From Rhodobacteraceae bacterium Alg238-R152 (GTDB lineage: Bacteria; Pseudomonadota; Alphaproteobacteria; Rhodobacterales; Rhodobacteraceae), in assembly GCA_900537125.1 (NCBI GenBank), contig UNRJ01000009.1, forward strand, positions 62,001 through 126,000: DNA of 64,000 nucleotides, read 5' to 3'. Each line of letters opens with the position of its first letter. The stretch's first letter is position 1. The notes beneath the pieces were generated by a model. It saw only the letters and a program-made list of their open reading frames with translations. It ran no database searches and was not told the origin of the DNA. The translations under genes and the position numbers were made by a program. Below, piece by piece: positions 10,348 through 24,491 of the stretch.

Positions 10348-11099
10348 CCCAACTGTCTTTGGTGGGCATCGGCTCCGGTAATCCGGTTCACCTCACGTTG
10401 CAGGCGATCAAAACGCTGGAAAACGCGGATGTCATCCTGTTGCCACGCAAAGGCGACGAGAAAACCGAACTGGCTGACCTGCGCCGGATGATTGCCAGTG
10501 AGCTGCTCACCACAGCGCCAAAGATTGTCGAATTTGACTACCCCGTGCGCGACGCCGACACGCCGAAATATCTCGACGGCGTGAACACGTGGCACGATGC
10601 CTTGGCGGCAATCTGGCAAGACCTCATCGCCACACAGGTACCGGAAAATGGCAGTGTTGCGCTGATGGTTTGGGGTGACCCTTCGCTCTATGACAGCACC
10701 CTGCGCATAGCCGATCGCCTGATCGCACGGGGCATTGACCTCAACGTGCACGTCATCCCCGGCATCACCTCGCTGCAAATGCTGACGGCGGCCCACGCCA
10801 TCCCGCTCAACACCTTGGGCGGCGCGGTGCAGATCACTACAGGCCGCAAACTGCGCGACGAAGGCTGGCCTTCCGATACGGCCACAGTCGCTGTAATGCT
10901 GGACGGGGAATGCTCGTTCCAAAGCTTGGACGCAGACGGCATCCACATCTGGTGGGGCGGTTATGTTGGTATGGAGCAGCAGATCCTAATCGAAGGCCCG
11001 CTATCTGAGGTCTCCGCCCAAATCGTAAAGGCCCGCGCAGATGCACGGGCCTCTAACGGGTGGATCATGGACATCTACCTATTGCGCAAAAGCGCTTAG
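10344..11099 (+). CDS. cobF: CobF, precorrin-6A synthase (deacetylating)
   Basis: CobF methylates C1 of precorrin-5 and releases acetate, producing precorrin-6A; the step is specific to the aerobic pathway. The 251-residue protein begins LSLVGIGSGNPVHLTLQA, a typical CobF N-terminus, and contains LMVWGDPSLYDSTLR and HVIPGITSLQML. It is the last gene of the cob operon here and overlaps the 3' end of the convergent alcohol dehydrogenase gene by four bases, so no free terminator lies between them. Confidence 0.94.
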   Translation: MTQLSLVGIGSGNPVHLTLQAIKTLENADVILLPRKGDEKTELADLRRMIASELLTTAPKIVEFDYPVRDADTPKYLDGVNTWHDALAAIWQDLIATQVPENGSVALMVWGDPSLYDSTLRIADRLIARGIDLNVHVIPGITSLQMLTAAHAIPLNTLGGAVQITTGRKLRDEGWPSDTATVAVMLDGECSFQSLDADGIHIWWGGYVGMEQQILIEGPLSEVSAQIVKARADARASNGWIMDIYLLRKSA

Positions 11100-12241
11100 A
11101 TCGTCGCCTCAAACAATGCGGTCAGGTTGGCTTCTGTCAGCTCAACCGGATTGCCACCGCAAGACGGGTCAATCAACGCGCCTTTCACCAGCTCCGGAAT
11201 TGCCTCAGAGGTCACACCAAGGTCAGAGAGCTTGCGCGGAATGCCCATGCTGTCGTTGAACCCCTGCACAAAAGCGCGGAAGCCGTCATAGCCGCCTTCA
11301 ATGCCCAAGTAGCTCGCCGCGCGGTCAAACCGCTCGGTGATCACTGGCGCATTCAGGTCCAACACTGCGGGCATACAGACCGCATTGGTGGTGCCGTGGT
11401 GGGTGTTGAACATCGCGCCAACCGGGTGGCTCATCGCATGGATCGCGCCGAGGCCCTTTTGGAACGCTGTTGCGCCCATCATCGCCGCGCTCATCATCTG
11501 CGCGCGCGCTTCGATGTCACGACCGTCAGCATAGGCGCGTGGCAGGTTCTCGATCACCAGCTTCATGCCTTCGAGCGCAATGCCCTGGCTCATCGGGTGA
11601 TAATGCGGGCTCGAATAGGCTTCGACACAATGTGCAAATGCGTCCAAACCTGTGCCCGCAGTGATGAACTGTGGCATGCCCACGGTTAGCTCCGGATCAC
11701 AGATCACCACAGCCGGAAGCACCTTCGGGTGGAAGATGATTTTCTTGGCGTGGGTGACGCTGTTGGTGATCACGCTGGCGCGGCCCACTTCAGAGCCGGT
11801 ACCCGCGGTGGTTGGCACGGCCACAATCGGCGCAATGCCGTCTGGGTCGGCCCGGGTCCACCAATCACCAATGTCTTCAAAATCCCAAACTGGGCGGGAT
11901 TGGCCAGACATAAAGGCAACCATTTTGCCCAGATCAAGGCCAGAGCCACCACCAAAGGCAATCACCCCATCGTGGCCTCCGGCGCGGTAGGCCTCTACAC
12001 CTGCAGTCAGGTTGATCTCGTTCGGGTTTGGATCCACCTCAGAAAACAGCCCCCGGCCCAGCCCTGCGGCCTCCATCAGATCCAAGGTTGCCACGGTAAT
12101 CGGCAAGTTTGCCAAGCCTTTGTCGGTCACCAACAAAGGTTTTTTCATGCCAGCCTGGGCACAGGCTTCTGCCAATTCCCCAATGCGGCCAGCACCAAAT
12201 CGGATCGCGGTCGGATACGACCAGTTTCCAGTGAGTGTCAT
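11096..12241 (-). CDS. Iron-containing alcohol dehydrogenase
   Basis: This is a 381-residue type III (Fe-dependent) alcohol dehydrogenase that oxidises a primary alcohol with NAD(P). The dinucleotide site shows as AFGGGSGLDLGKM and the phosphate/substrate region as VPTTAGTGSEV. Metal ligands lie in GLDAFAHCVEAY and in GAIHAMSHPVGAMFNTHHG. It is the most distal gene of the leftward cluster that begins near 19012, and overlaps cobF by four bases. In this context I infer that it oxidises the hydroxyl of a gamma-glutamylated amino alcohol to an aldehyde. A general short-chain alcohol role cannot be excluded. Confidence 0.9.
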   Translation of the reverse strand: MTLTGNWSYPTAIRFGAGRIGELAEACAQAGMKKPLLVTDKGLANLPITVATLDLMEAAGLGRGLFSEVDPNPNEINLTAGVEAYRAGGHDGVIAFGGGSGLDLGKMVAFMSGQSRPVWDFEDIGDWWTRADPDGIAPIVAVPTTAGTGSEVGRASVITNSVTHAKKIIFHPKVLPAVVICDPELTVGMPQFITAGTGLDAFAHCVEAYSSPHYHPMSQGIALEGMKLVIENLPRAYADGRDIEARAQMMSAAMMGATAFQKGLGAIHAMSHPVGAMFNTHHGTTNAVCMPAVLDLNAPVITERFDRAASYLGIEGGYDGFRAFVQGFNDSMGIPRKLSDLGVTSEAIPELVKGALIDPSCGGNPVELTEANLTALFEATI

Positions 12242-12259
12242 TGTTCTTCCTCAAAAAGT

Positions 12260-12289
12260 GGATGCCGGGACATTCTGTCTCCGGCATCC
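12260..12289 (-). terminator. Intercistronic hairpin between aldehyde and alcohol dehydrogenase genes
   Basis: GGATGCCGG and CCGGCATCC form a perfect 9-bp stem, extended inward by GACA/TGTC around a short loop. It lies between the two dehydrogenase genes, both read leftward. No T-run follows in the direction of transcription, so it looks more like an mRNA processing or stabilising structure than a full terminator. Confidence 0.45.
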
Positions 12290-12334
12290 GGCTTACCCAT
12301 TCTCAAACACAATTGCCGAGAACAGATCCCATGA

Positions 12335-13717
12335 TTACACAGTCACCTTTTTCAGGTGATAGCTCTTTGGTCGCGTAAGGTTCTGATACCCAATCACAGA
12401 CAACCCACCACCGCGCCCGGTGTTTTTGCACCCGGTCCAGCACAGGCTGGGGTCCAGGTAGTCGGCCCGGTTCATAAACACCGTGCCGGTCTCAATTTCA
12501 TTGCCGACGCGCTCAGCGCGCTCCACATCTTTGGTCCACAGCGACGCGGTCAGGCCAAACTCGCTGTCGTTCATCAGCGCGATGGCTTCCTCATCTGAGG
12601 TCACCTTCATGATGCCAACAACAGGACCAAAACTCTCATCCTGCATCACCCGCATGTCGTGGGTCACATTGGTCAGGATTTGTGGCGTCAGATAGGCCCC
12701 GCCGTCATCCTCAGCAAAGGTTTCAATCTGCGCCGTAGCGCCAGCTTCCAAAGCCTCAGAAATCTGCGCCCGCACCTCATCGGCAAAACGCACGTTGGCC
12801 ATTGGACCAATGGTGGTGGCTTCGTCCATCGGATTGCCCAGCTTGTAGCCTTTCACAATCTCCACCGCCTTTGCGACGAAGTCGTCATAGAGGCTCTCGT
12901 GCACGTAAATACGCTCGATGCCACAGCAGCACTGACCGGAGTTGAACATCGCCCCGTCGATCAGCGTGTCAACCGCCGCATCCACGTCCGCGTCTTCCAT
13001 AACATAGCCCGGATCTTTACCACCCAGCTCGGTGCCGACACCGGTGAACGTGCCCGCCGCTGCGCGCTCCATTGCCTGACCGCCACCAACAGAGCCGGTG
13101 AAGTTCACAAAATCAAACGCGTTGCCCGCGATCAATTCATTGGTCACGTCATGGCTCAGGAACACGTTCTGGAACACGTCTTCAGGTACACCCGCGCTGT
13201 GGAACGCCTGCGCCATGCGCTCACCCACCACCAAGGTCTGGGTCGCGTGTTTCAGCACCACTGTGTTGCCCGCGATAAGCGCTGGTGCAACTGTGTTGAT
13301 CGCGGTCATGTAGGGGTAATTCCATGGCGCAACCACAAACACCACGCCATGTGGCAGGCGTTTGATGTAGCGCTTGAAGGTCTCGTCCTCACCCACCTGA
13401 ATGTCCGCAAGGCTCTCTTCGGCAATCGCGGCCATATGGCTGGCACGTTCGTTAAAGCCCCCAAACTCGCCGCCATACCGCACCGGACGGCCCATCATTT
13501 TGGCAATCTCTGGCACGATCTCATCGTTCATCGCACCCACAGCCGCCACACCGGCCATCACCAAATCCACGCGTTCCTGCAACGGCCGCGCCGCCCAGGC
13601 TTTCTGCGCGTCCTTTGCGCGTTTGACCGCAGCAAAAGCCTCATCCGTGCTCAGCACCGGGCGTTCCGCAAAGACCGATCCGTCGATCGGAGAAATACAC
13701 GTCAACATGCCGCTCAT
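12335..13717 (-). CDS. Aldehyde dehydrogenase family protein
   Basis: This is a 460-residue NAD(P)-dependent aldehyde dehydrogenase. The general-base region ELGGKDPGYVMEDADVD and the catalytic cysteine region NSGQCCCGIERIYV are intact, and the cofactor segment VAPWNYPYMTAINT is present. The ATG at 13717 has a GGAG site seven bases upstream. It sits between a glutamine-synthetase-like gene and an Fe alcohol dehydrogenase gene. The inferred job is oxidation of a gamma-glutamyl amino aldehyde to the acid, as PuuC-type enzymes do in putrescine breakdown; the true substrate is not shown by the sequence. Confidence 0.9.
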   Translation of the reverse strand: MSGMLTCISPIDGSVFAERPVLSTDEAFAAVKRAKDAQKAWAARPLQERVDLVMAGVAAVGAMNDEIVPEIAKMMGRPVRYGGEFGGFNERASHMAAIAEESLADIQVGEDETFKRYIKRLPHGVVFVVAPWNYPYMTAINTVAPALIAGNTVVLKHATQTLVVGERMAQAFHSAGVPEDVFQNVFLSHDVTNELIAGNAFDFVNFTGSVGGGQAMERAAAGTFTGVGTELGGKDPGYVMEDADVDAAVDTLIDGAMFNSGQCCCGIERIYVHESLYDDFVAKAVEIVKGYKLGNPMDEATTIGPMANVRFADEVRAQISEALEAGATAQIETFAEDDGGAYLTPQILTNVTHDMRVMQDESFGPVVGIMKVTSDEEAIALMNDSEFGLTASLWTKDVERAERVGNEIETGTVFMNRADYLDPSLCWTGCKNTGRGGGLSVIGYQNLTRPKSYHLKKVTV

Positions 13718-13808
13718 GGCAACACTCCATCCAGAGGGGGCACGTGGCCCCGCTTTTCTTAGTCACTAGTCTGCCGGCGTTGCGAGGGGCGTACCCCCCG
13801 CGCCGGTC

Positions 13809-15173
13809 TTAAGCCCGCTCAAATCCGCGAGCAATTTCCCAATCGGTCACAACCGCCTCAAAGGCTTCCTGCTCCCATTCCGCCATGCGCACGTAGTGGT
13901 CGATTACATCGTCGCCCATGGCTTCACGTAGCATCTGGGACCCACGTAGGGCTTCTGTTGCGCCTTTCAACGTGGTCGGGATCTCTTCGTTGCTGTTTTC
14001 ATAAGCATCGCCGGTCAGCGGCGCACCCGGATCACATTTTTCCTCAATGCCTTTGATGCCTGCGGCCAACATCGCCGCAATTGCAAGGTAAGGGTTCATA
14101 TCTGCACCCGGTACCCGGCATTCCACGCGCACCGCTTTGCTGCCATCGCCACACAGGCGGAACGCGGCCGTGCGGTTGTCCACGGACCACACCTTGGCGG
14201 TGGGCGCAAAGCTGCCTTTTTGGAAACGTTTGTAGCTGTTTACATACGGCGCAAGGAACACGGTGATGTCATCTGCGTATTTCAGCAACCCACCAAGATA
14301 GTGCCGCGCCAGCTCAGACATGCCCAGCTCTGCCTCCGGATCGTAAAACGCCGGAACGCCGTCTTTGGTCCAGAGCGACTGGTGCACATGGCTTGCCGAG
14401 CCAACCTTGTCGTGGCGCCACTTAGGCAAAAACGACACCGCATGCCCCTGCTGCCAGCCAATTTCTTTGGCGGCATGTTTGGCCACAGTATGGTTTTCCG
14501 CCGCATCCATCGCGCTGCCATAGCGGATGTTAAGCTCTTCCTGCCCAGTCTCGGCCTCGCCTTTGGAGCCTTCAATCGGAATACCCGACGCATAAAGCGT
14601 GTTGCGCATTGTGCGCATAACGCCTTCTTCTTTGGTGGTTTGCAGGATGTGATAGTCTTCATTGTAGCGGCTGATTGGGGTCAAGTCGCGGTAACCGCTC
14701 TTGGCCAGCTCATCAAAGCTCTGCTCAAAGATAAAGAATTCAAGTTCGGTCGCGGACACAGCTTCAAAGCCCATCTCCGCCAGCCGCGCGATTTGCTTCT
14801 TCAGCATGCCCCGCGGGGAATGTGCAATGTCGTGGTGTCCGTGGTGATCCATCACATCACAGATCACAAGGGCGGTGCCTTCCAACCAGGCCGCCTTGCG
14901 CAGCGTGGTGAGGTCCGGCTTCATCAGGTAGTCGCCATATCCGGCAGACCAGCTGGTGGAGGCATAGCCTTCTACCGTGTGCATCTCCAGATCGGTCGCC
15001 AGCAAATAATTGCAGCAATGGGTCTCTTCCCAGGCGCTATCGACAAAATGCTGCGCCAAAAAGCGCTTGCCCATCAAGCGGCCTTGCATATCCACAATGC
15101 AGGCCAAAACGGTGTCAATTTCGCCGCTGGCGCTCAGCGCGCCCAACTCTTCTAGGGTCAAATTGCCCGACAT
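13809..15173 (-). CDS. Glutamine synthetase-like gamma-glutamyl ligase
   Basis: The product has 454 residues from the ATG at 15173 (a GTG nine bases earlier is possible, but AGAGAAAG is better spaced for the ATG). It has the glutamine synthetase fold: ATELEFFIFE near residue 140, HVHQSLW, and NRTAAFRLCG near the ATP site. There is no recognisable adenylylation loop, and the C-terminus ends WEIARGFERA as in PuuA/GlnT-type enzymes. With ALDH, alcohol dehydrogenase and a TRAP importer beside it, I infer ligation of glutamate to an imported amine or amino alcohol rather than ammonia assimilation. Confidence 0.88.
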   Translation of the reverse strand: MSGNLTLEELGALSASGEIDTVLACIVDMQGRLMGKRFLAQHFVDSAWEETHCCNYLLATDLEMHTVEGYASTSWSAGYGDYLMKPDLTTLRKAAWLEGTALVICDVMDHHGHHDIAHSPRGMLKKQIARLAEMGFEAVSATELEFFIFEQSFDELAKSGYRDLTPISRYNEDYHILQTTKEEGVMRTMRNTLYASGIPIEGSKGEAETGQEELNIRYGSAMDAAENHTVAKHAAKEIGWQQGHAVSFLPKWRHDKVGSASHVHQSLWTKDGVPAFYDPEAELGMSELARHYLGGLLKYADDITVFLAPYVNSYKRFQKGSFAPTAKVWSVDNRTAAFRLCGDGSKAVRVECRVPGADMNPYLAIAAMLAAGIKGIEEKCDPGAPLTGDAYENSNEEIPTTLKGATEALRGSQMLREAMGDDVIDHYVRMAEWEQEAFEAVVTDWEIARGFERA

Positions 15174-15198
15174 CTGATGCACTTTCTCTTGGTGTCAC

Positions 15199-15228
15199 CG
15201 AAGCCCCAGCGATCAAACCGGGGCTTCG
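15199..15228. terminator. Hairpin between dctP and the gamma-glutamyl ligase gene
   Basis: CGAAGCCCC and GGGGCTTCG form a perfect 9-bp stem with a 12-base loop, directly after the dctP stop in the direction of leftward transcription. The T-rich side faces right, so leftward termination would be partial. Such hairpins after a binding-protein gene often set higher expression of that gene; this is inference. Confidence 0.45.
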
Positions 15229-15256
15229 AATTTCTCTTTATTCGGAGATCTAAGCC

Positions 15257-16285
15257 TTAGCGGTACGGACGGCCAGCCGCCTGCATGTCCGCGTTGTACT
15301 TTTTGAAGATCTCAACAACTTTTGCCTTGGTTGGGCTTTCCGCTGCAATCTCATCCCAGAACTTCACAGCTGCGGTTTCCACGGTTGCCCATTCTTCATC
15401 AGGGATGGTGGTCAGCTGCATCTTGGTGCCGTTGACGCGCAGGTTGGCTTCGCCACCCCAATACCACCACTGACGGTAGTAGTGCGACTGGTCACAGCAG
15501 ACGCGGAACAGGGTCTGCAGGTCTTCTGGCAGCTCGTTCCAACGGCCTTGGTTGGCAAAGAAGCTGCCCGCCCATGCGCCGGAGATGTTGTTGGTCAGGA
15601 AGTAGTTGGTCACGTCGGCCCAGCCTACGGTATAGTCCTCGGTGATACCGGACCATGCGATGCCGTCGAGCTCGCCGGTCTGAACCGCAACTTCGATATC
15701 TTCCCATGGCAGGGTCACTGGCACCACGCCAAACTGGCTCAGGAAGCGGCCCGCGGTTGGGAAAGTGAAGACGCGCTTGCCTTTGAGGTCGGCCAGCGAA
15801 TTGATTGGGTCTTTGGTAGCAAAGTGGCACGGATCCCAAGAGCCAGCGCTGATGTGCTTCACGCCAACTTTGGAGTACTCTTCATCCCAGATCTCGTTCA
15901 GGCCGTACTGGTTGAACAGCACAGGCACGTCGAGGCTGTAGCGCGAACCAAACGGGAAGTAGCCGCCAAACACGGTCACTTCGGTTGGCGACGCCATGGA
16001 GTCATCATCGGACTGTACTGCATCAATGGTGCCTTTTTGCATGGCACGGAACAGCTCACCGGTTGGGACCAGCTGATCAGCGTAGAACAGTTCAATCTGC
16101 ATGCGGTCGCCCGCAATTTTGTTGAACATTTCAATCGCTGGATCGATCACATGTGCGGCCAAAGATGGACCTGCATAGGTCTGCATACGCCACTTGATGG
16201 TGCTGGAAGCCAGCGCTGGGGTCGCCAATGGTGCGGCCATTGCCCCAACACCAGCGGTCTGAAGAAACTTACGTCTAGTTGTCAT
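15257..16285 (-). CDS. dctP: TRAP transporter substrate-binding protein (DctP family)
   Basis: This is a 342-residue periplasmic binding protein. It opens with a twin-arginine signal (TTRRKFLQTAG, then an Ala-rich stretch ending PALASS), suggesting Tat export. The mature part shows the DctP features: TPTEV-like ASPTEVTVFGG, DLKGKRVFTF and the VQTGELDGIAWSG region with the conserved E-L-D-G. The many Trp and Tyr residues in the second half (SHYYRQWWYWGG) are typical of alpha-keto acid and related TRAP proteins. The ligand is unknown; the downstream genes suggest an amine- or amide-containing compound. Confidence 0.92.
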   Translation of the reverse strand: MTTRRKFLQTAGVGAMAAPLATPALASSTIKWRMQTYAGPSLAAHVIDPAIEMFNKIAGDRMQIELFYADQLVPTGELFRAMQKGTIDAVQSDDDSMASPTEVTVFGGYFPFGSRYSLDVPVLFNQYGLNEIWDEEYSKVGVKHISAGSWDPCHFATKDPINSLADLKGKRVFTFPTAGRFLSQFGVVPVTLPWEDIEVAVQTGELDGIAWSGITEDYTVGWADVTNYFLTNNISGAWAGSFFANQGRWNELPEDLQTLFRVCCDQSHYYRQWWYWGGEANLRVNGTKMQLTTIPDEEWATVETAAVKFWDEIAAESPTKAKVVEIFKKYNADMQAAGRPYR

Positions 16286-16338
16286 CTCTTACTCTCCTTG
16301 TTGCGTTTCGGCCCCGTTCGCGGCGCTCTTTTGTGTTG

Positions 16339-17661
16339 TTATTTTCCGTAAACATAGTTTGGCAGCCACAGTGCGATCTGCGGGAAGATCATGACCAACG
16401 TCAGGGCCAGGACCATCACCGCCACAAAGGGCACGATGCTGCGGTATATGTCGCGTAGGGTGACTTCTTTGGGCGCCATGGCCCGCATAAGAAACAGGTT
16501 GTAGCCAAAGGGCGGCGTCATATAGGCGATCTGGGTGGTGATCGTGTAGAGCACGCCATACCAGATCAGATCAAAGCCAAGCGCTTGTACCAGTGGCACG
16601 TAAAGTGGTGCCACGATGACCAACATCGCCGTGTCATCCAAGAAGGTGCCCATGATGATGAAGCTCAGCTGCATCAGGATCAGGATCATCCATGGCTCAA
16701 GGCCCAATTGCTCGGTGAACAGGTTGTCGATGGCTTTCACCGCGCCCAGCCCGTCAAACACCGCACCAAAACCCAGTGCCGCGAGAATGATCCACATGAA
16801 CATGCAGGAAATACCCAGCGTGCTGCGCACAGAATTCTCGAACACTTCCCGCGTCATCCGGCCTTTCAGAACGGCGGCCACAAAGGCGGTGATTGCCCCA
16901 ATCGCGGAACTTTCGACCAAAGAGGTCCAGCCATTTACAAAGGGGATCATCATGGTGGCAAAGATTACCAGTGGCAGCAGGCCAGCCCGCAGCAGTTTCA
17001 TCTTTTCCGCGCGGCTGATATTACGCTCTTCCGCTGGCAAAACCGGACCAAGCTCTGGCTGGATGCGACAGCGGATCACCACATAAAGGATGAACATCGC
17101 CGCCATCATCAGGCCCGGGAAAACACCAGCCAACCACAGCTGACCCACCGGTTGGCGTGCGATCATGGCATAGAGCACCAGCACCACAGAGGGTGGCACC
17201 AGAATACCCAAGCTGGATCCGGCCTGAATGACCCCGGTGACCATGCGTTTGTCATAGCCCCGCTTTAGCAGCTCCGGCAGCGCAATGGTGGCACCAATCG
17301 CCATACCCGCCACGCTCAATCCGTTCATCGCGGACACAAGAACCATCAACAGAATGGTCCCAATCGCTAGCCCGCCACGAACCGGCCCCATCCAGACATG
17401 GAACATCTTGTAGAGGTCATCAGCAATCTTGGACTCGCTGAGTACATAGCCCATAAAAATGAACATCGGCAGCGTCAGCAGCGGATACCATTTCATCAGT
17501 TTCATCGCAGCCGAGAAGCCGATATCAGAGCCACCTGTGCCCCAAAGCAGCACCGCTGCCAGTACCCCAACAAAGCCGATGGCTCCAAAGACACGCTGCC
17601 CGGTCATGAGCATCAGCATCATGGTCGAGAACATCAGAATGGCGATCATTTCGTAAGACAT
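16339..17661 (-). CDS. dctM: TRAP transporter large permease (DctM)
   Basis: This 440-residue inner-membrane protein has about a dozen hydrophobic segments, the usual size for DctM. Family features include MNGLSVAGMAIGATIALPELLKRGY, SLGILVPPSVVLVLYA and FLDDTAMLVIVAPLYVP. With DctQ it forms the sodium-coupled membrane part of the transporter fed by the binding protein at 15257. The start shares a base with the dctQ stop (TAATG). Confidence 0.94.
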   Translation of the reverse strand: MSYEMIAILMFSTMMLMLMTGQRVFGAIGFVGVLAAVLLWGTGGSDIGFSAAMKLMKWYPLLTLPMFIFMGYVLSESKIADDLYKMFHVWMGPVRGGLAIGTILLMVLVSAMNGLSVAGMAIGATIALPELLKRGYDKRMVTGVIQAGSSLGILVPPSVVLVLYAMIARQPVGQLWLAGVFPGLMMAAMFILYVVIRCRIQPELGPVLPAEERNISRAEKMKLLRAGLLPLVIFATMMIPFVNGWTSLVESSAIGAITAFVAAVLKGRMTREVFENSVRSTLGISCMFMWIILAALGFGAVFDGLGAVKAIDNLFTEQLGLEPWMILILMQLSFIIMGTFLDDTAMLVIVAPLYVPLVQALGFDLIWYGVLYTITTQIAYMTPPFGYNLFLMRAMAPKEVTLRDIYRSIVPFVAVMVLALTLVMIFPQIALWLPNYVYGK

Positions 17662-18257
17662 TAGTAGTCCACTCCGCGGATGCGCGCGATGTCTTTGAGT
17701 AGCTCAGAGATCGCCTGCAAGAGCATAAGAATAAAGCCAAAAACCATGATGAGTTTGATCGGCCAAAGAACGGGGCGCCAGGCCGTAGGGCTGCGCTCGA
17801 TATATCCAATGATCTCGCTTGCGGCCTCTTTGCCGCCGGTGATGTAAGCCATCACAAGATCTTTGTAGAAGGTGTAGGGTTCCACGCCAAAATGCCCCAG
17901 CGAGTACGCGCTGGATCCCACGGCCCCGTGGATCAGGATCACCAGATAGAACCCCAGGAAGAAGACGGTCATAGCGTCAACAATGGCGCGCTGGCGCAAG
18001 GTCCACTCGCCGTAGAACAAGTCCATGCGCACGTTGGAGCCCATTTGCACCGAATACGGCCCGCCAAGCACGTAGTACGCCACCATGGTAAACTGCGCCA
18101 TTTCCAGCGTCCACATTGACGGCGTCAGGAAGGTTTTGGAGAAAGACGACCACAGCAGGATGCCCATCATGACAAAAATGCCATACATGACAAAACGGCC
18201 TACTTTGCGGTTAAACCAATCCACCCCGTGGATGTAGTAGCGAATGAGCTTTGGCAT
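17661..18257 (-). CDS. dctQ: TRAP transporter small permease (DctQ)
   Basis: This is a 198-residue membrane protein with four main hydrophobic helices (residues about 20-40, 55-75, 95-115 and 160-180) and a family-like WTLEMAQFTMVAYYVLGG segment. It is the small subunit of the TRAP system. A GTG lies one codon upstream, but the ATG at 18257 overlaps the stop of the preceding gene as TGATG and is preferred. The long central loop before the last helix is somewhat larger than in minimal DctQ proteins. Confidence 0.9.
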   Translation of the reverse strand: MPKLIRYYIHGVDWFNRKVGRFVMYGIFVMMGILLWSSFSKTFLTPSMWTLEMAQFTMVAYYVLGGPYSVQMGSNVRMDLFYGEWTLRQRAIVDAMTVFFLGFYLVILIHGAVGSSAYSLGHFGVEPYTFYKDLVMAYITGGKEAASEIIGYIERSPTAWRPVLWPIKLIMVFGFILMLLQAISELLKDIARIRGVDY

Positions 18258-19012
18258 CACGCAATCTCCCCAGCTTGGCGCAGCTCAGTCATGCCCTGTG
18301 CAATCGCGGCTTCGATAACATCCGTTATCTGCGCTGCCATTTCATCGCTGGCCAGCAAATCATTGCGCACTTCCAGCATGACATTGGGCAACTTTCTGGG
18401 CAACGCATAGGCCTTCAGAGAGTGGGTCACCCCATGCTCCGGCCCATAAGGATCGTTGCGCAATGTGACAAACGGACCATCCGCCATGCAAGTCAACATG
18501 CTGTCTGCCAAGCGTGTGTCACGGTCATGCAGAATGCCAATTTCAACCGCACGCTGCTTGCCGTGATAGACCGGCGTAAAGGAATGTACGGTGACAATTG
18601 CCTTTGGATGCACCACCTCAATCACCTGCTCCACCGCCTCTTTAAACGGCTGATAGATCTGCGTCACACGGGCCTGACGATCCGCGCCCGACAAATTCAC
18701 ATTGCCGGGAATCTCAAAGATTTCGCTTTTGGCCGGCACCGCATCTTGCGCTTCCGGTGGACGGTTGCAGTCATACAACAGGCGCGACACGCCCCCCGCC
18801 ACCAACGTGCAGTCAAAGCGTCTGGCCAGTTCACGGGTCAAGGTCAACGCACCGGGATCCCAGGCCACATGGCTTTGGCGCACCTCATCGGACAATCCAA
18901 GCGCGCCAAAAACTGACGGAAATTTACTGGAGGCATGTTCACACACAAACAGGATATCACAAGGCGCCATTGCGCCCTCAATCACCACTGCCTCTGAATC
19001 GTCTAGAGTCAT
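18257..19012 (-). CDS. N-formylglutamate amidohydrolase family hydrolase
   Basis: The 251-residue protein belongs to the zinc amidohydrolase family that includes HutG-type N-formylglutamate deformylase. Conserved elements are ILFVCEHASSKFP, DPGALTLTREL, YDCNRPPE and IVTVHSFTPVYHGK. The ATG at 19012 follows AGGGA at good spacing; a TTG start 36 bases upstream is less likely. It is the first gene of the leftward cluster and is coupled to dctQ. No other histidine-degradation (hut) genes are near. In this setting it could remove the gamma-glutamyl or another acyl cap from a pathway intermediate; that is inference. Confidence 0.87.
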   Translation of the reverse strand: MTLDDSEAVVIEGAMAPCDILFVCEHASSKFPSVFGALGLSDEVRQSHVAWDPGALTLTRELARRFDCTLVAGGVSRLLYDCNRPPEAQDAVPAKSEIFEIPGNVNLSGADRQARVTQIYQPFKEAVEQVIEVVHPKAIVTVHSFTPVYHGKQRAVEIGILHDRDTRLADSMLTCMADGPFVTLRNDPYGPEHGVTHSLKAYALPRKLPNVMLEVRNDLLASDEMAAQITDVIEAAIAQGMTELRQAGEIA

Positions 19013-19086
19013 GTTGTCCCTGTCGTGCCATTTTGCATTTGTGAACAAACTTCTTCAGAGTCACCCGTCCTGTCAATAATTATTCT

Positions 19087-19097
19087 GAAAATTTTTC
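19087..19097. promoter_or_regulatory. Palindrome GAAAA-T-TTTTC, possible RpiR operator
   Basis: A perfect 5+1+5 inverted repeat lies in the 146-base space between the catabolic cluster and the divergent rpiR gene. The stretch is AT-rich and must hold both promoters. A role as the regulator's binding site is plausible from position only. Confidence 0.3.
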
Positions 19098-19158
19098 TTC
19101 TCAGGCGATTACTTTGAAACTATGCTTACATTTGTAGCAGTTAGTAAGTGAGCCCCCC

Positions 19159-20022
19159 GTGAAAGACACCGCACAGGAAACCATAAACAAGATTTATGAC
19201 AGTTTGACCCGCGCAGAGCGTCAGCTCGCCGGGGTGATTTTGGAGAATTACCCCATGTCCGGCATGGGCTCTATCACCCGACTCGCGGACAAAGCTTCGG
19301 TGTCTACGCCCACGGTTGCCCGAATGGTGCAAAAACTTGGTTACACGGGCTTCCCAGAATTCCAAGAAGCGCTGCGTCAAGAGGTCGAAGCCCGCTTTTC
19401 GAACCCGATTGCCAAACATGAAAGCTGGGCGCAAAGCGCCCCGGAAGCGCACATCCTCAACCGCTTCACCGATGCGGTGATGAGCAATATCCGTCAGACC
19501 TTGGCCAACATCGATCCCGCGCAATTTGACGCGCTCACCGCCCTGCTCGCGGACGAAAACCGCGCTCTTTACATCACTGGTGGCCGCATCACCCACGCCT
19601 TGAGCGAATACTTGCACCTGCACATGCAGGTCATCCGCGCCCGAGTGCGCCACATTCGATCCACGTCAAATGCCTGGCCGCATGACCTACTCGACATTTC
19701 TGAAGGCGATGTTGTCCTGATATATGACATCCGTCGCTACGAAAACTCGACCCTACGGCTCGCGGAAATCGCAAAGGGGCGTGGTGCAAAAATCGCACTG
19801 ATCACTGATCAATGGCAAAGCCCAATCAGCCAGTATGCCGATGTATCTCTCAAATGCCGGATCGAGGCCCCGTCCGCTTGGGATTCCACGGTCTCGATGA
19901 TGCTGCTTTCAGAAACGCTGATTGCTGCGGTACAAGAGGCCCGCTGGGATCAAACTGAGAGTCGTATGCACGCTCTGGAAGACATGTTTGACCAGACAAA
20001 AATCTTCCGGAAGTTTGTTTGA
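19159..20022 (+). CDS. RpiR/MurR family transcriptional regulator
   Basis: The 287-residue protein has an N-terminal RpiR-type helix-turn-helix (residues about 1-75, with GSITRLADKASVSTPTVARMVQKLGYTGF-like spacing) and a C-terminal SIS domain (from about residue 120, ALYITGGRITHALSEYLH) that binds a small phosphorylated or acidic effector in relatives. The start is GTG; the upstream ribosome site is weak. It is transcribed away from the TRAP/ligase cluster and is most simply its local regulator. Confidence 0.9.
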   Translation: MKDTAQETINKIYDSLTRAERQLAGVILENYPMSGMGSITRLADKASVSTPTVARMVQKLGYTGFPEFQEALRQEVEARFSNPIAKHESWAQSAPEAHILNRFTDAVMSNIRQTLANIDPAQFDALTALLADENRALYITGGRITHALSEYLHLHMQVIRARVRHIRSTSNAWPHDLLDISEGDVVLIYDIRRYENSTLRLAEIAKGRGAKIALITDQWQSPISQYADVSLKCRIEAPSAWDSTVSMMLLSETLIAAVQEARWDQTESRMHALEDMFDQTKIFRKFV

Positions 20023-20304: not shown

Positions 20305-21384
20305 ATGAAAATATTGGCCGTTGATGACGATGAACACATCTGCGAACTGCTCTCTGAAGCGGTTGCAGCCAAAACTGGTCACACCATTGTCACCGCCACG
20401 TCCGGACCTGACGCCATTCGCGCAATAGCCAAGGCCAAAGTACCGTTTGATTGCTTTCTTTTGGATGTTCAAATGCCGATCATGGACGGCATCACGCTCA
20501 CCAAAAAAATCCGCAAGACCAAACCATACACACGGACGCCAATTCTCATGCTGACAGCCATGTCTCAAAAAAAGTACATTGACGCGGCCTTTGAGGCTGG
20601 CGCCAGCGACTACATCACCAAGCCTTTCGATTTTCAGGAGCTATTCACCAGACTCTCAATAGCAGAGCGCCAGGTCGAAGAGCGTAATGAACTGACGGCA
20701 AGCATCTCAGAAATGGCCTCGCTGAAAAAGGATCTGATCTTCAACACCGCGCACAGTTTGAGTGAACCCATTGAAATCACAGGTGTCACCCAGCTTGTGG
20801 GATACATGGCTTTTGAAAGACACATCCTAGACATGCCTCGCAGACAGCGGATGCGCACACAGGCATTTGCCGTCAAGGTCAGCACCATCAACAGCGCCTA
20901 TAAATCTCTGTCCGCCGTGGCCTTCCGGCAAATGCTGACAGATATTGGCAGCGAGCTGCTGTCAGTTCTTGCCAACAACGACGCGCAAGCGACCTATAGA
21001 GGCGACGGTGTTTTTGTTGGGACATTGCCGCGCAGCGCTAACTATTCCGCTGTCCGCCTTGAGGCTGCACTAAACAGCCGCCTTAATTTTGTGCCCTCCA
21101 CTCAAATTGATGGGCTGCAAAATGAGGTTTGCTTCGGAGAGGCTGTAGATCTGCGTACGCTCACACAAGGAGGCGCGCTGCGCGCTTTGCAAAAAGCGGC
21201 GGCCAATGTGCAAGCCCGCACAGATAGCAAGCACGCAGACCTAGATGCGCTACGCAAGAATAAACGCCTGCACCCTGCCAGTGGGTTTCAGACAGAAATG
21301 GAGCGTCGCGCCTACGAAACGCTTTTGCACGACGCTCTTAATCAAGACAGCCAAGGTCCAACTCGCGCGACGGCGTTTGGCTGA
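20305..21384 (+). CDS. Response regulator with degenerate GGDEF-like output domain
   Basis: The 359-residue protein has a canonical receiver domain: acidic pocket DDD at 7-9, phosphoacceptor Asp54 in FLLDVQMPIMDG and Lys106 in ITKPFDF. After a helical linker (about 115-150) the C-terminal part looks like a diguanylate cyclase fold in which the active-site loop reads YRGDGVFVG (residues 231-239) instead of GGDEF or GGEEF, so catalysis is unlikely. It could be a c-di-GMP/GTP sensor or a purely protein-binding output. It sits downstream of a CtrA-type site and converges on the luxI-like gene 13 bases away. Confidence 0.85.
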   Translation: MKILAVDDDEHICELLSEAVAAKTGHTIVTATSGPDAIRAIAKAKVPFDCFLLDVQMPIMDGITLTKKIRKTKPYTRTPILMLTAMSQKKYIDAAFEAGASDYITKPFDFQELFTRLSIAERQVEERNELTASISEMASLKKDLIFNTAHSLSEPIEITGVTQLVGYMAFERHILDMPRRQRMRTQAFAVKVSTINSAYKSLSAVAFRQMLTDIGSELLSVLANNDAQATYRGDGVFVGTLPRSANYSAVRLEAALNSRLNFVPSTQIDGLQNEVCFGEAVDLRTLTQGGALRALQKAAANVQARTDSKHADLDALRKNKRLHPASGFQTEMERRAYETLLHDALNQDSQGPTRATAFG

Positions 21385-21397
21385 TCACGCTATTGGG

Positions 21398-21985
21398 TCA
21401 GTGGTGCGTGCTGGACAAGTCCATGCGCGCCACTTGCACCGGCAGACCATCCACCAGCATCACCGGCCCTGCGGCCTCTGCAACCAACCCCAAACGGCGT
21501 ATCCAACGTGGCCAAATTGCCGGGACCAGGCCAAGCACATGTTTGGCCTCCATGTCTCTCGCTGTGTCGATAAGTTTTTCCATCAACTGCGTTTGCACTT
21601 CGGTGCGATCCTCCGCGGGCACATCCCGCGCTACAAATACTCGGCTTGCGTCAAGTATATGCGGATCAATCGGCGCCTCATTATACAAAAGGTTGGATGG
21701 AATAGACTCAAGCATGCCCTTCTGCGCATCCCTGATCATATATGAATACATGCCACATCGCGCGGTGGTTGGCGTCAAACGCACTCCCGCAAGGATGCGC
21801 TCGCCTTCATGCACCGCAATCCAACTAGATGCAGGTGTATCGTATTGGTCGTACTCCATACCCGCCACTTCCGGCAGGTCCCAGTTGTTCTGGACAATAA
21901 AGGACTGCTTTCGCGCCTTCAGCAGATTGACCATCAATTCGCCATGCTTGTGCATGGTCTCGAATGACAGAGTAGTCGTCAGCAT
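21398..21985 (-). CDS. LuxI-family acyl-homoserine lactone synthase (orphan)
   Basis: The 195-residue protein shows the LuxI core pattern: Arg25, Phe29 and Trp35 (RKQSFIVQNNW), Asp46 and Asp49 (EYDQYDT), Arg69 (LAGVRLTPT) and Arg115 in DASRVFVARD. The usual Glu three residues before that Arg is Asp112 here. The family makes N-acyl-homoserine lactones from SAM and acyl-ACP or acyl-CoA. No luxR-type regulator lies beside it or anywhere in this window. A related GNAT-fold autoinducer synthase with another acyl donor is the main alternative. Confidence 0.85.
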   Translation of the reverse strand: MLTTTLSFETMHKHGELMVNLLKARKQSFIVQNNWDLPEVAGMEYDQYDTPASSWIAVHEGERILAGVRLTPTTARCGMYSYMIRDAQKGMLESIPSNLLYNEAPIDPHILDASRVFVARDVPAEDRTEVQTQLMEKLIDTARDMEAKHVLGLVPAIWPRWIRRLGLVAEAAGPVMLVDGLPVQVARMDLSSTHH

Positions 21986-23033: not shown

Positions 23034-24491
23034 ATGCACATTGAAACCCCAAATCGATCTCGGGTGGACACGCCGATACTACGGCGCATCCAAAGCCGCC
23101 TCCGCGTGCTGTTCCCGCGTCGCCAACTTCCCGTAGAACACTCCCGCCGCCTCAAGCAGCAAATGCATGACTTTTCCGGTGGTGGCGTTGCGCTGTTCTG
23201 GCAAAGGCAAGGCATCTACGCTGGCGCTGGGTTCTTATGCGGCTTCTACTATTCCTGGCCGCTCGCGGCCCTTTGTTACTTGCTGATTCAGGTCGCCGAT
23301 ATCTTTGACAGTGTTATTTGTCATAGCGTGATCAACCGCACCGATCATTCGTTGCGCCACAGCCATAAGCTGCTGAAACGTCTCTTTGCTTCAAATGCGA
23401 TTTCGGCGGCATCCATTGCCACATTCACACTTTTGCTCGCGCGTCTCGAAGGCCCCGGTGAACATTTTACCTCGCTGTTCTTCCTGTTTGCTGCTGGTCT
23501 TTTTGCGGCGGTGAACAACCATCAACTCAAGCAGGTTCTGGCATTACGCCTAATCACCTATGGAGCGTTGTTTATCTACATTCCAGCCTCCGACATTTTG
23601 GCAGAAAGCGCCCCTTTCACCTCCAAGCTCTGGTTGCACTTCGCCACATCTTTGTTTGTGCTGTATTTTGTACTGGAATGCTCGACCATCTTCCTACGCA
23701 TGTATCAGCGCACTTTGGATCAGATGGACGAGCTGCGCTCCGAGCGTGACAAGGCCCGTGAAAGCTATGAAATCAAATCGCAGTTTGTGTCAGTGGTCAG
23801 TCACGAACTTCGTACTCCGCTGACGTCGATCACCGGGTCACTCACGCTTCTGCGTGAAACCAACCTGTCCAAAGACCCTGAAAAATCCGACCGGATGCTG
23901 GATATTGCGCATAAAAATAGCAAACGCTTGAGCAAGCTTATCAATGATCTTCTGGACATCCAGAAGATGGAGGCACGCAAGATGGTGTATCATTTTGCCC
24001 CGGTTGATCTTGGCCAGCTGCTCAATGATGCGGCCCAATCTATCACGCCTTATGCCGACCAATATGAGATAGTGGTGCGCACGGCACCACCACCTTACCC
24101 GCTGACGATCCGCGCCGATCATGAGCGTTTGATGCAGGTTCTAGACAACCTTCTGTCCAATGCCGTGAAGTTCTCGCACCAAGGCGGCTACGTCGAGCTC
24201 ACAGCCCGTCTCGTGGATGGTTGCGCCATGTTGGAGGTCCGCGACTACGGTGTTGGTATTCCCGAAACCGAACGGCACATGGTCTTTGGCAAGTTTACGC
24301 AGGTCGATAATACCGACTGCCGCAATTTCGATGGCTCGGGTCTGGGCCTCTCAATCGCGCGCCAAATCATCGAAGATCACGGCGCCTCCGTAGATTTTGA
24401 CAGCTCGCTTGGCGAAGGCACGCGGTTCTACGTGGTCTTCCCACTGTGTGACACCGAAGAAAATATCAGTATCGAACTGCCGACATCATGA
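23034..24491 (+). CDS. Membrane sensor histidine kinase
   Basis: The 485-residue protein has a basic N-terminus, about five or six transmembrane helices between residues 60 and 222, a short coiled coil (225-245), the dimerisation/H-box VVSHELRTPLTSITGS with His257, then N-box (LDNLLSNAVKFSHQ), G1 (VRDYGVGIP) and G2 (GSGLGLSIARQI) ATP-binding motifs. There is no PAS or HAMP domain that I can see and no fused receiver, so phosphate must leave to a separate partner. The HPt gene follows immediately and a REC gene converges on it. The multi-helix sensor resembles no family I can name. Confidence 0.92.
   Translation: MHIETPNRSRVDTPILRRIQSRLRVLFPRRQLPVEHSRRLKQQMHDFSGGGVALFWQRQGIYAGAGFLCGFYYSWPLAALCYLLIQVADIFDSVICHSVINRTDHSLRHSHKLLKRLFASNAISAASIATFTLLLARLEGPGEHFTSLFFLFAAGLFAAVNNHQLKQVLALRLITYGALFIYIPASDILAESAPFTSKLWLHFATSLFVLYFVLECSTIFLRMYQRTLDQMDELRSERDKARESYEIKSQFVSVVSHELRTPLTSITGSLTLLRETNLSKDPEKSDRMLDIAHKNSKRLSKLINDLLDIQKMEARKMVYHFAPVDLGQLLNDAAQSITPYADQYEIVVRTAPPPYPLTIRADHERLMQVLDNLLSNAVKFSHQGGYVELTARLVDGCAMLEVRDYGVGIPETERHMVFGKFTQVDNTDCRNFDGSGLGLSIARQIIEDHGASVDFDSSLGEGTRFYVVFPLCDTEENISIELPTS

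Follow-up and report, generated by a model that had tools for sequence, protein, structure and literature searches.

A predicted operon for ethanolamine catabolism by gamma-glutamylation in a Shimia-like genome of the Rhodobacteraceae

The 64,000-nucleotide stretch of Rhodobacteraceae bacterium Alg238-R152 analysed here (contig UNRJ01000009.1, positions 62,001–126,000; 'the window') contains a seven-gene operon on the minus strand, running from 19048 down to 11096 and faced by a plus-strand RpiR regulator gene at 19159–20022. The operon is predicted, with a probability of about 0.94, to serve the catabolism of ethanolamine, an abundant natural amino alcohol and a common piece of membrane lipids, by gamma-glutamylation. 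The host genome is Shimia-like: its closest ligase matches in the named collection come from Shimia sagamensis and three further Shimia records (91–99% identity). The pathway is already known, and the window is a further Roseobacter-group (Shimia) example of it.

Gene content and predicted route

Counted from the regulator, the operon encodes a hydrolase of the N-formylglutamate amidohydrolase (FGase) family (18257–19012; PF05013, E = 3.8e-34); the small and large permeases of a tripartite ATP-independent periplasmic (TRAP) importer, DctQ (EtoV, 17661–18260; PF04290, E = 1.5e-13) and DctM (EtoW, 16339–17661; PF06808, E = 2.3e-68); the periplasmic binding protein DctP (EtoX, 15257–16285); a glutamine-synthetase-like ligase (13809–15182; PF00120); an aldehyde dehydrogenase (12335–13717; PF00171, E = 3.8e-118); and an iron-containing alcohol dehydrogenase (11096–12241; PF00465/PF25137). 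A preliminary description of this DNA had listed the same eight genes at about these coordinates, and it is confirmed by the eight open reading frames and their Pfam assignments (Fe-ADH, Aldedh, Gln-synt_C, DctP, DctM, DctQ and FGase, with HTH_6 and SIS in the regulator). As it also noted, no amine oxidase is present among the reading frames and Pfam families of the operon.

In the predicted route, EtoX would catch ethanolamine in the periplasm and EtoV and EtoW would import it. The ligase (predicted ethanolamine gamma-glutamylase, ETAGA) would then use ATP to join ethanolamine to glutamate at its gamma-carboxylate, giving gamma-glutamylethanolamide, which the alcohol dehydrogenase (predicted gamma-glutamylethanolamide dehydrogenase, GETADH) would oxidise to its aldehyde. 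The aldehyde dehydrogenase (predicted gamma-glutamyl-aminoacetaldehyde dehydrogenase, GAADDH) would oxidise the capped aldehyde to gamma-glutamylglycine, and the FGase-type enzyme (predicted gamma-glutamylglycine amidohydrolase, GGAH) would hydrolyse this to glutamate and glycine. The RpiR protein presumably controls the divergent promoter. For the Shimia-like window strain the whole pathway is predicted by homology.

This logic of import by TRAP, capping, two oxidations and uncapping by an FGase had been proposed in the preliminary description, with ethanolamine or a similar amino alcohol as substrate; both proposals agree with the gene sets in the literature on Chromohalobacter salexigens, a gammaproteobacterium, and Phaeobacter sp. 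MED193. Its author's impression that the TRAP importer and the FGase-type uncapping enzyme were new does not hold, as both are already in print and the pathway is published in relatives.

The operon MED193_10021 to 10056 (Westermann et al. 2023, PMC10132767) agrees with the window, by gene list and order, in all eight genes: RpiR, GGAH, EtoV, EtoW, EtoX, ETAGA, GAADDH and GETADH. RpiR thus lies at the same operon end, the aldehyde dehydrogenase holds the same position and the alcohol dehydrogenase is again the last gene; the MED193 enzymes are named there gamma-glutamylglycine amidohydrolase, ethanolamine gamma-glutamylase, gamma-glutamylacetylaldehydeamide dehydrogenase and gamma-glutamylethanolamide dehydrogenase. 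In the same paper, credit for C. salexigens and Agrobacterium tumefaciens goes to Vetting et al. 2015, and a review (PMC9397018, Table 2) assigns to C. salexigens the four enzyme families also present in the window, PF00120, PF00465, PF00171 and PF05013. A similar route is described in Streptomyces coelicolor (PMC6529630), where the reaction of GlnA4, a glutamine-synthetase-like gamma-glutamylethanolamide synthetase, is reported and the remaining steps, by a dehydrogenase, an aldehyde dehydrogenase and an FGase-family hydrolase, are predicted; it differs in its regulator, EpuRI, and the available part of that paper does not mention a TRAP importer. The two oxidations and the uncapping are given as predictions in these sources (PMC10132767, PMC6529630, PMC9397018), and the FGase step is the least secure part of the route. 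Ethanolamine from lipid headgroups is presented as a marine nitrogen source in PMC10132767, in whose ocean data etoX occurs in about 5 to 10% of bacteria.

The binding protein

Residues 26–342 of DctP match PDB entries 4uab and 4xf5, which have identical chain sequences, with E = 1.4e-188 and most residues identical in the alignment. Entry 4uab is Csal_0678 of C. salexigens with bound ethanolamine (PMC12410723), a TRAP binding protein in which the usual carboxylate-binding arginine is missing (PMC4646407). The window protein is homologous to Csal_0678 and identical to it, residue for residue, across the GKRVFTFPTAGRFL stretch. Its E216 lies within a TEDYTxGW stretch that is conserved in both DctP subclasses described below, and is probably the platform Glu220 of the ethanolamine site in Csal_0678. 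EtoX of MED193 binds ethanolamine with a dissociation constant of 7.9 µM and does not bind phosphorylethanolamine, phosphocholine or glycerol phosphates (PMC10132767). The preliminary description had regarded binding of an unrelated acid by DctP as fatal to its proposal; the homologues, by the C. salexigens structure and the MED193 affinity, bind ethanolamine.

The ligase and the other enzymes

The ligase is close to PDB 5dm3 (E = 7.3e-210), which we take to be Csal_0679 of C. salexigens, and to 11zs (E = 6.1e-168), so that both the binding protein and the ligase of the Csal_0678/0679 locus are close homologues of those in the window. Csal0679 is merely named among putative glutamine synthetases in PMC5299690.

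That the ligase is an ordinary nitrogen-assimilation glutamine synthetase beside unrelated catabolic genes is extremely improbable. It does match the type I and type III glutamine synthetase models (E = 3.7e-75 and 5.5e-72), but it falls below both curated NCBIfam cut-offs (253 of 429 and 243 of 470 bits), and it lacks the flap glutamate of the ammonia-using enzyme. The flap position is F325, phenylalanine stands there in all 80 of the relatives' ligases examined, and the separate GlnA-like protein of the same genome keeps glutamate, as aligned by eye; of the ammonium site, this comparison covers the flap residue alone. Four Gln-synt_C proteins are encoded in the genome, the top-scoring of which is this canonical-looking GlnA. 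The same replacement of the flap glutamate by phenylalanine is given for the GlnA4 model (PMC6529630). The conserved gene order described below also speaks against a chance neighbour. With the equivalog cut-off missed and the flap glutamate gone, a housekeeping role was rejected, and the reservation in the preliminary description that the ligase might prove an ordinary glutamine synthetase loses force as far as sequence comparison can tell.

A pathway of the Puu type, with putrescine as substrate, follows a related plan, in which a glutamate cap is followed by oxidation, with the amine oxidase PuuB, and uncapping, with the hydrolase PuuD. The gamma-glutamylputrescine synthetase model matches the ligase weakly, at 210 bits, far under its cut-off of 650. 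The operon has an alcohol dehydrogenase instead, contains neither a PuuB-type amine oxidase nor a PuuD-type class I amidotransferase hydrolase, and the Puu reading was rejected on the absence of these two enzymes; we give it almost no weight. The role is better fitted by another pair of glutamine-synthetase-like genes in the same genome, one of them beside an apparent FAD oxidoreductase (by eye). These two further genes lie close together (G000:C1:221605–224686; L095 and L096) and, with their oxidoreductase-like neighbour, are possibly a Puu-type polyamine pathway.

The remaining enzymes, of families PF00465, PF00171 and PF05013, occur together in the operon. The iron alcohol dehydrogenase stays under the cut-off in each of the 14 NCBIfam models listed, the best being 4-hydroxybutyrate dehydrogenase (351 of 500 bits), and the aldehyde dehydrogenase reaches no cut-off among the matches listed (25 of 45). 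The FGase matches PDB 2odf (Atu2144; E = 6.1e-77) and is one of four FGase-family matches in the genome. For this gene the in-frame ATG at 19012, giving 251 amino acids, is a likelier start than the listed TTG at 19048, supported by an ATG seen by eye at the corresponding position in the Shimia relative L008.

Conservation of the operon

Genome contigs were scanned with the ligase; the best 80 of the 481 relatives so obtained were retained, and each of the 80 was scored with tblastn at a threshold of E 1e-5, the counts including partial matches at contig ends. The aldehyde dehydrogenase was found in 78 of these loci, the alcohol dehydrogenase in 73, FGase in 72, DctP, DctM and RpiR in 71 each and DctQ in 70, with two weak paralogous matches among them (an aldehyde dehydrogenase at 28% in L039 and a DctM at 31% in L038). 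All eight genes are present in 60 loci, and their order and strands are identical in every one of the 60. Where flanks on both sides were sufficient (65 loci), DctP, FGase, both dehydrogenases and RpiR occur together in 57; the eight exceptions comprise three loci without DctP and RpiR, two without FGase, one without DctP, one without DctP and FGase, and one without the aldehyde dehydrogenase. The gene set co-occurs far beyond chance, and its association is kept in relatives, the loss of which had been named beforehand as an argument against the proposal. In 5 of the 65, DctP is missing beside the ligase, and the neighbours there can change. Across the order, the ligase was found at E 1e-100 or better in 88, and an FGase homologue at 1e-30 or better in 81, of 121 genomes drawn.

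A gene of the sodium/phosphate (Na/Pi) cotransporter family stands between DctP and the ligase in six TRAP-type operons (L012, L013, L065, L071, L076 and L077). Where a ligase copy has no DctP match next to it, an iron alcohol dehydrogenase adjoins the ligase, with no aldehyde dehydrogenase homologue detected, in 10 of 20 regions (L097, L098, L102, L103, L104, L105, L111, L113, L114 and L115), and these are possibly a different amine pathway.

Several observations weigh against the preferred reading. Two TRAP-bearing relatives, L055 (Seohaeicola saemankumensis) and L078, have DctP, the ligase, both dehydrogenases and RpiR without an operon FGase, and their genomes gave only distant homologues at 29–30% identity, so uncapping may be replaceable or done otherwise; by eye, no obvious replacement candidate stands among the neighbouring reading frames of L055. 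These FGase-less operons are a natural test of whether FGase truly does the uncapping. L028 also lacks the operon FGase and has a 43% homologue elsewhere in its genome. In MED193, EtoX also increased, less strongly, without added phosphate (Table 2 of PMC10132767), so that induction there was not by the headgroup alone. Finally, 11 of the 71 loci with DctP (L015, L022, L042, L043, L044, L049, L053, L058, L060, L072 and L084) carry, in the same operon context, a diverged subclass of the protein with 61–63% identity to that of the window and with changes including W150Q, H154N, A156N, F173Y and W194Y. Not every such operon therefore need take ethanolamine, and this subclass may bind another amino alcohol. 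Among the matches listed, the better DctP sequences form two groups, of at least 56 genomes at 74–100% identity and at least 22 at 62–66%, the remainder lying at or below 30%.

The diverged subclass bears on a second reading of the window, with the same chemistry acting on a different natural amino alcohol, such as L-alaninol, which would yield alanine and not glycine. In its favour are this subclass and PDB 4xf5, identical in chain to 4uab, which we take to contain 2-amino-1-propanol. Against it, the DctP of the window is a main-class protein, very near that of C. salexigens, and ethanolamine is, as general knowledge has it, the abundant natural amino alcohol. The affinity of MED193 EtoX given above points the same way, as do five MED193 operon proteins that increase on phosphorylethanolamine (PMC10132767). 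Another amino alcohol as the natural substrate is very unlikely, and ethanolamine remains the preferred one.

Phosphatase-bearing variants in relatives

In some relatives the FGase, ligase and the two dehydrogenases, here called the trunk, are joined to other genes. In Pseudorhodobacter aquimaris (L050:3806–13889), an aminoethylphosphonate-type ATP-binding cassette (ABC) importer, a DeoR regulator and a phosphatase of the inositol-monophosphatase family stand directly before the trunk. The importer matches the phnS2, PhnT2 and PhnU2 models under their cut-offs, and the phosphatase has HisN as its best NCBIfam match (235 of 275 bits, under the cut-off). The arrangement suggests uptake of phosphorylated ethanolamine. 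In L047 (4257–13987) the trunk is preceded by DeoR, a 54% homologue of the L050 phosphatase and an Na/Pi cotransporter, and a divergent hydrolase there matches 4upk, a phosphonate monoester hydrolase (E = 2.9e-258), and the PehA model (451 of 900 bits). L047, L161 and L166 share this divergent PehA/phosphonate-monoester-hydrolase-like enzyme and the DeoR and phosphatase genes before the trunk; the cotransporter occurs in L047 and L161, and none was matched in L166. In a further arrangement (L163:4287–18189, L148:4334–18548 and L057:1–13028, the last in Leisingera daeponensis), the trunk is combined with an OpuAC-type (glycine-betaine-type) ABC importer and a phosphatase, together with a choline-kinase-family protein and a DAO/GCV_T (dimethylglycine-dehydrogenase-like) protein. 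The same cassette stands without a trunk nearby in L149, L152, L153, L157 and L158.

These arrangements allow a tentative view, which we hold to be possible though less than even, that the trunk takes different inputs in different relatives: free ethanolamine through TRAP in the window, and in the variants headgroups (phosphoethanolamine, glycerophosphoethanolamine or N-methylated ethanolamines) that would be imported whole, stripped of methyl and phosphate groups inside the cell and fed in as ethanolamine. The variant substrates are suggested by family names only. Transport of intact headgroups 'remains to be determined' according to Westermann et al. (PMC10132767). If the variants do import phosphorylated or methylated headgroups, the entry route of intact lipid headgroups into marine bacteria becomes directly testable; they merit a separate look and would, if so, matter more than the known pathway of the window itself.

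The phosphatase, however, is found mostly with other partners, and the ethanolamine link therefore rests on a minority of loci. When 390 genomes of the order were searched for the phosphatase, 42 of them yielded 44 matches at 1e-75 or better; the genome of the window has no match of this strength. Within about 1.5 kb on each side of the phosphatase in 30 loci, FGase or the ligase was in reach in 4 (L118, L126, L134 and L138) and an Na/Pi cotransporter in 12 (L121, L124, L129, L130, L132, L133, L136, L137, L140, L142, L143 and L146). Wide flanks were taken for 20 of the 44 matches, an uneven draw made up largely of the top-ranked matches and picked after the narrow-flank result. The ligase is near the phosphatase in 5 of these 20 (L148, L156, L161, L163 and L166, of which L156 has no FGase match), the pair of choline-kinase-like and dimethylglycine-dehydrogenase-like genes in 9 (L148, L149, L150, L152, L153, L157, L158, L163 and L164) and an Na/Pi cotransporter in 6 (L151, L154, L159, L161, L162 and L165); L116 is one further case, fetched because of its ligase. 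Literature searches found, among the titles listed, no paper describing the phosphatase or kinase variants, which is weak evidence of absence, and as a lead the coupling of the trunk to phosphatase, choline-kinase-like and demethylase-like genes in relatives appears new.

Control region and neighbouring genes

The RpiR gene is divergent from the operon in all 60 complete loci. In the window, a possible control region without assigned strand (19071–19104) comprises a TTGACA-like box on the minus strand (19071–19076) adjoining an A/T-rich imperfect palindrome at about 19085–19104. Across the intergenic regions of 68 loci and the window, whose sequences are related, the pattern GAAA-N3-TTTC, one of 13 tried, occurs in 13 of 69 against a mean of 0.32 over 50 simple shuffles; the commonest 9-mer, CTGTCAATA, is present in 28 of the 69. 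The palindrome may be an operator for RpiR, as a weak lead only.

The operon lies beside cobalamin (B12) genes, a neighbourhood to which the preliminary description had drawn attention. No match to EutB (PF06751) was found in the genome, with a positive control in Escherichia coli, so there is no sign of the ethanolamine ammonia-lyase route, and the Eut pathway was rejected. Matches to cobF and cobA accompany the operon in 3 of the 80 loci (L005, L007 and L008), all Shimia, with some loci ending early on that side. With no EutB and so narrow an occurrence, the neighbourhood shows no sign of functional meaning and looks incidental.

Beyond the regulator, a minus-strand reading frame at 21398–21985 resembles, by eye, an acyl-homoserine-lactone synthase, and lies near a response-regulator-like (20305–21384) and a histidine-kinase-like reading frame (23034–24491).

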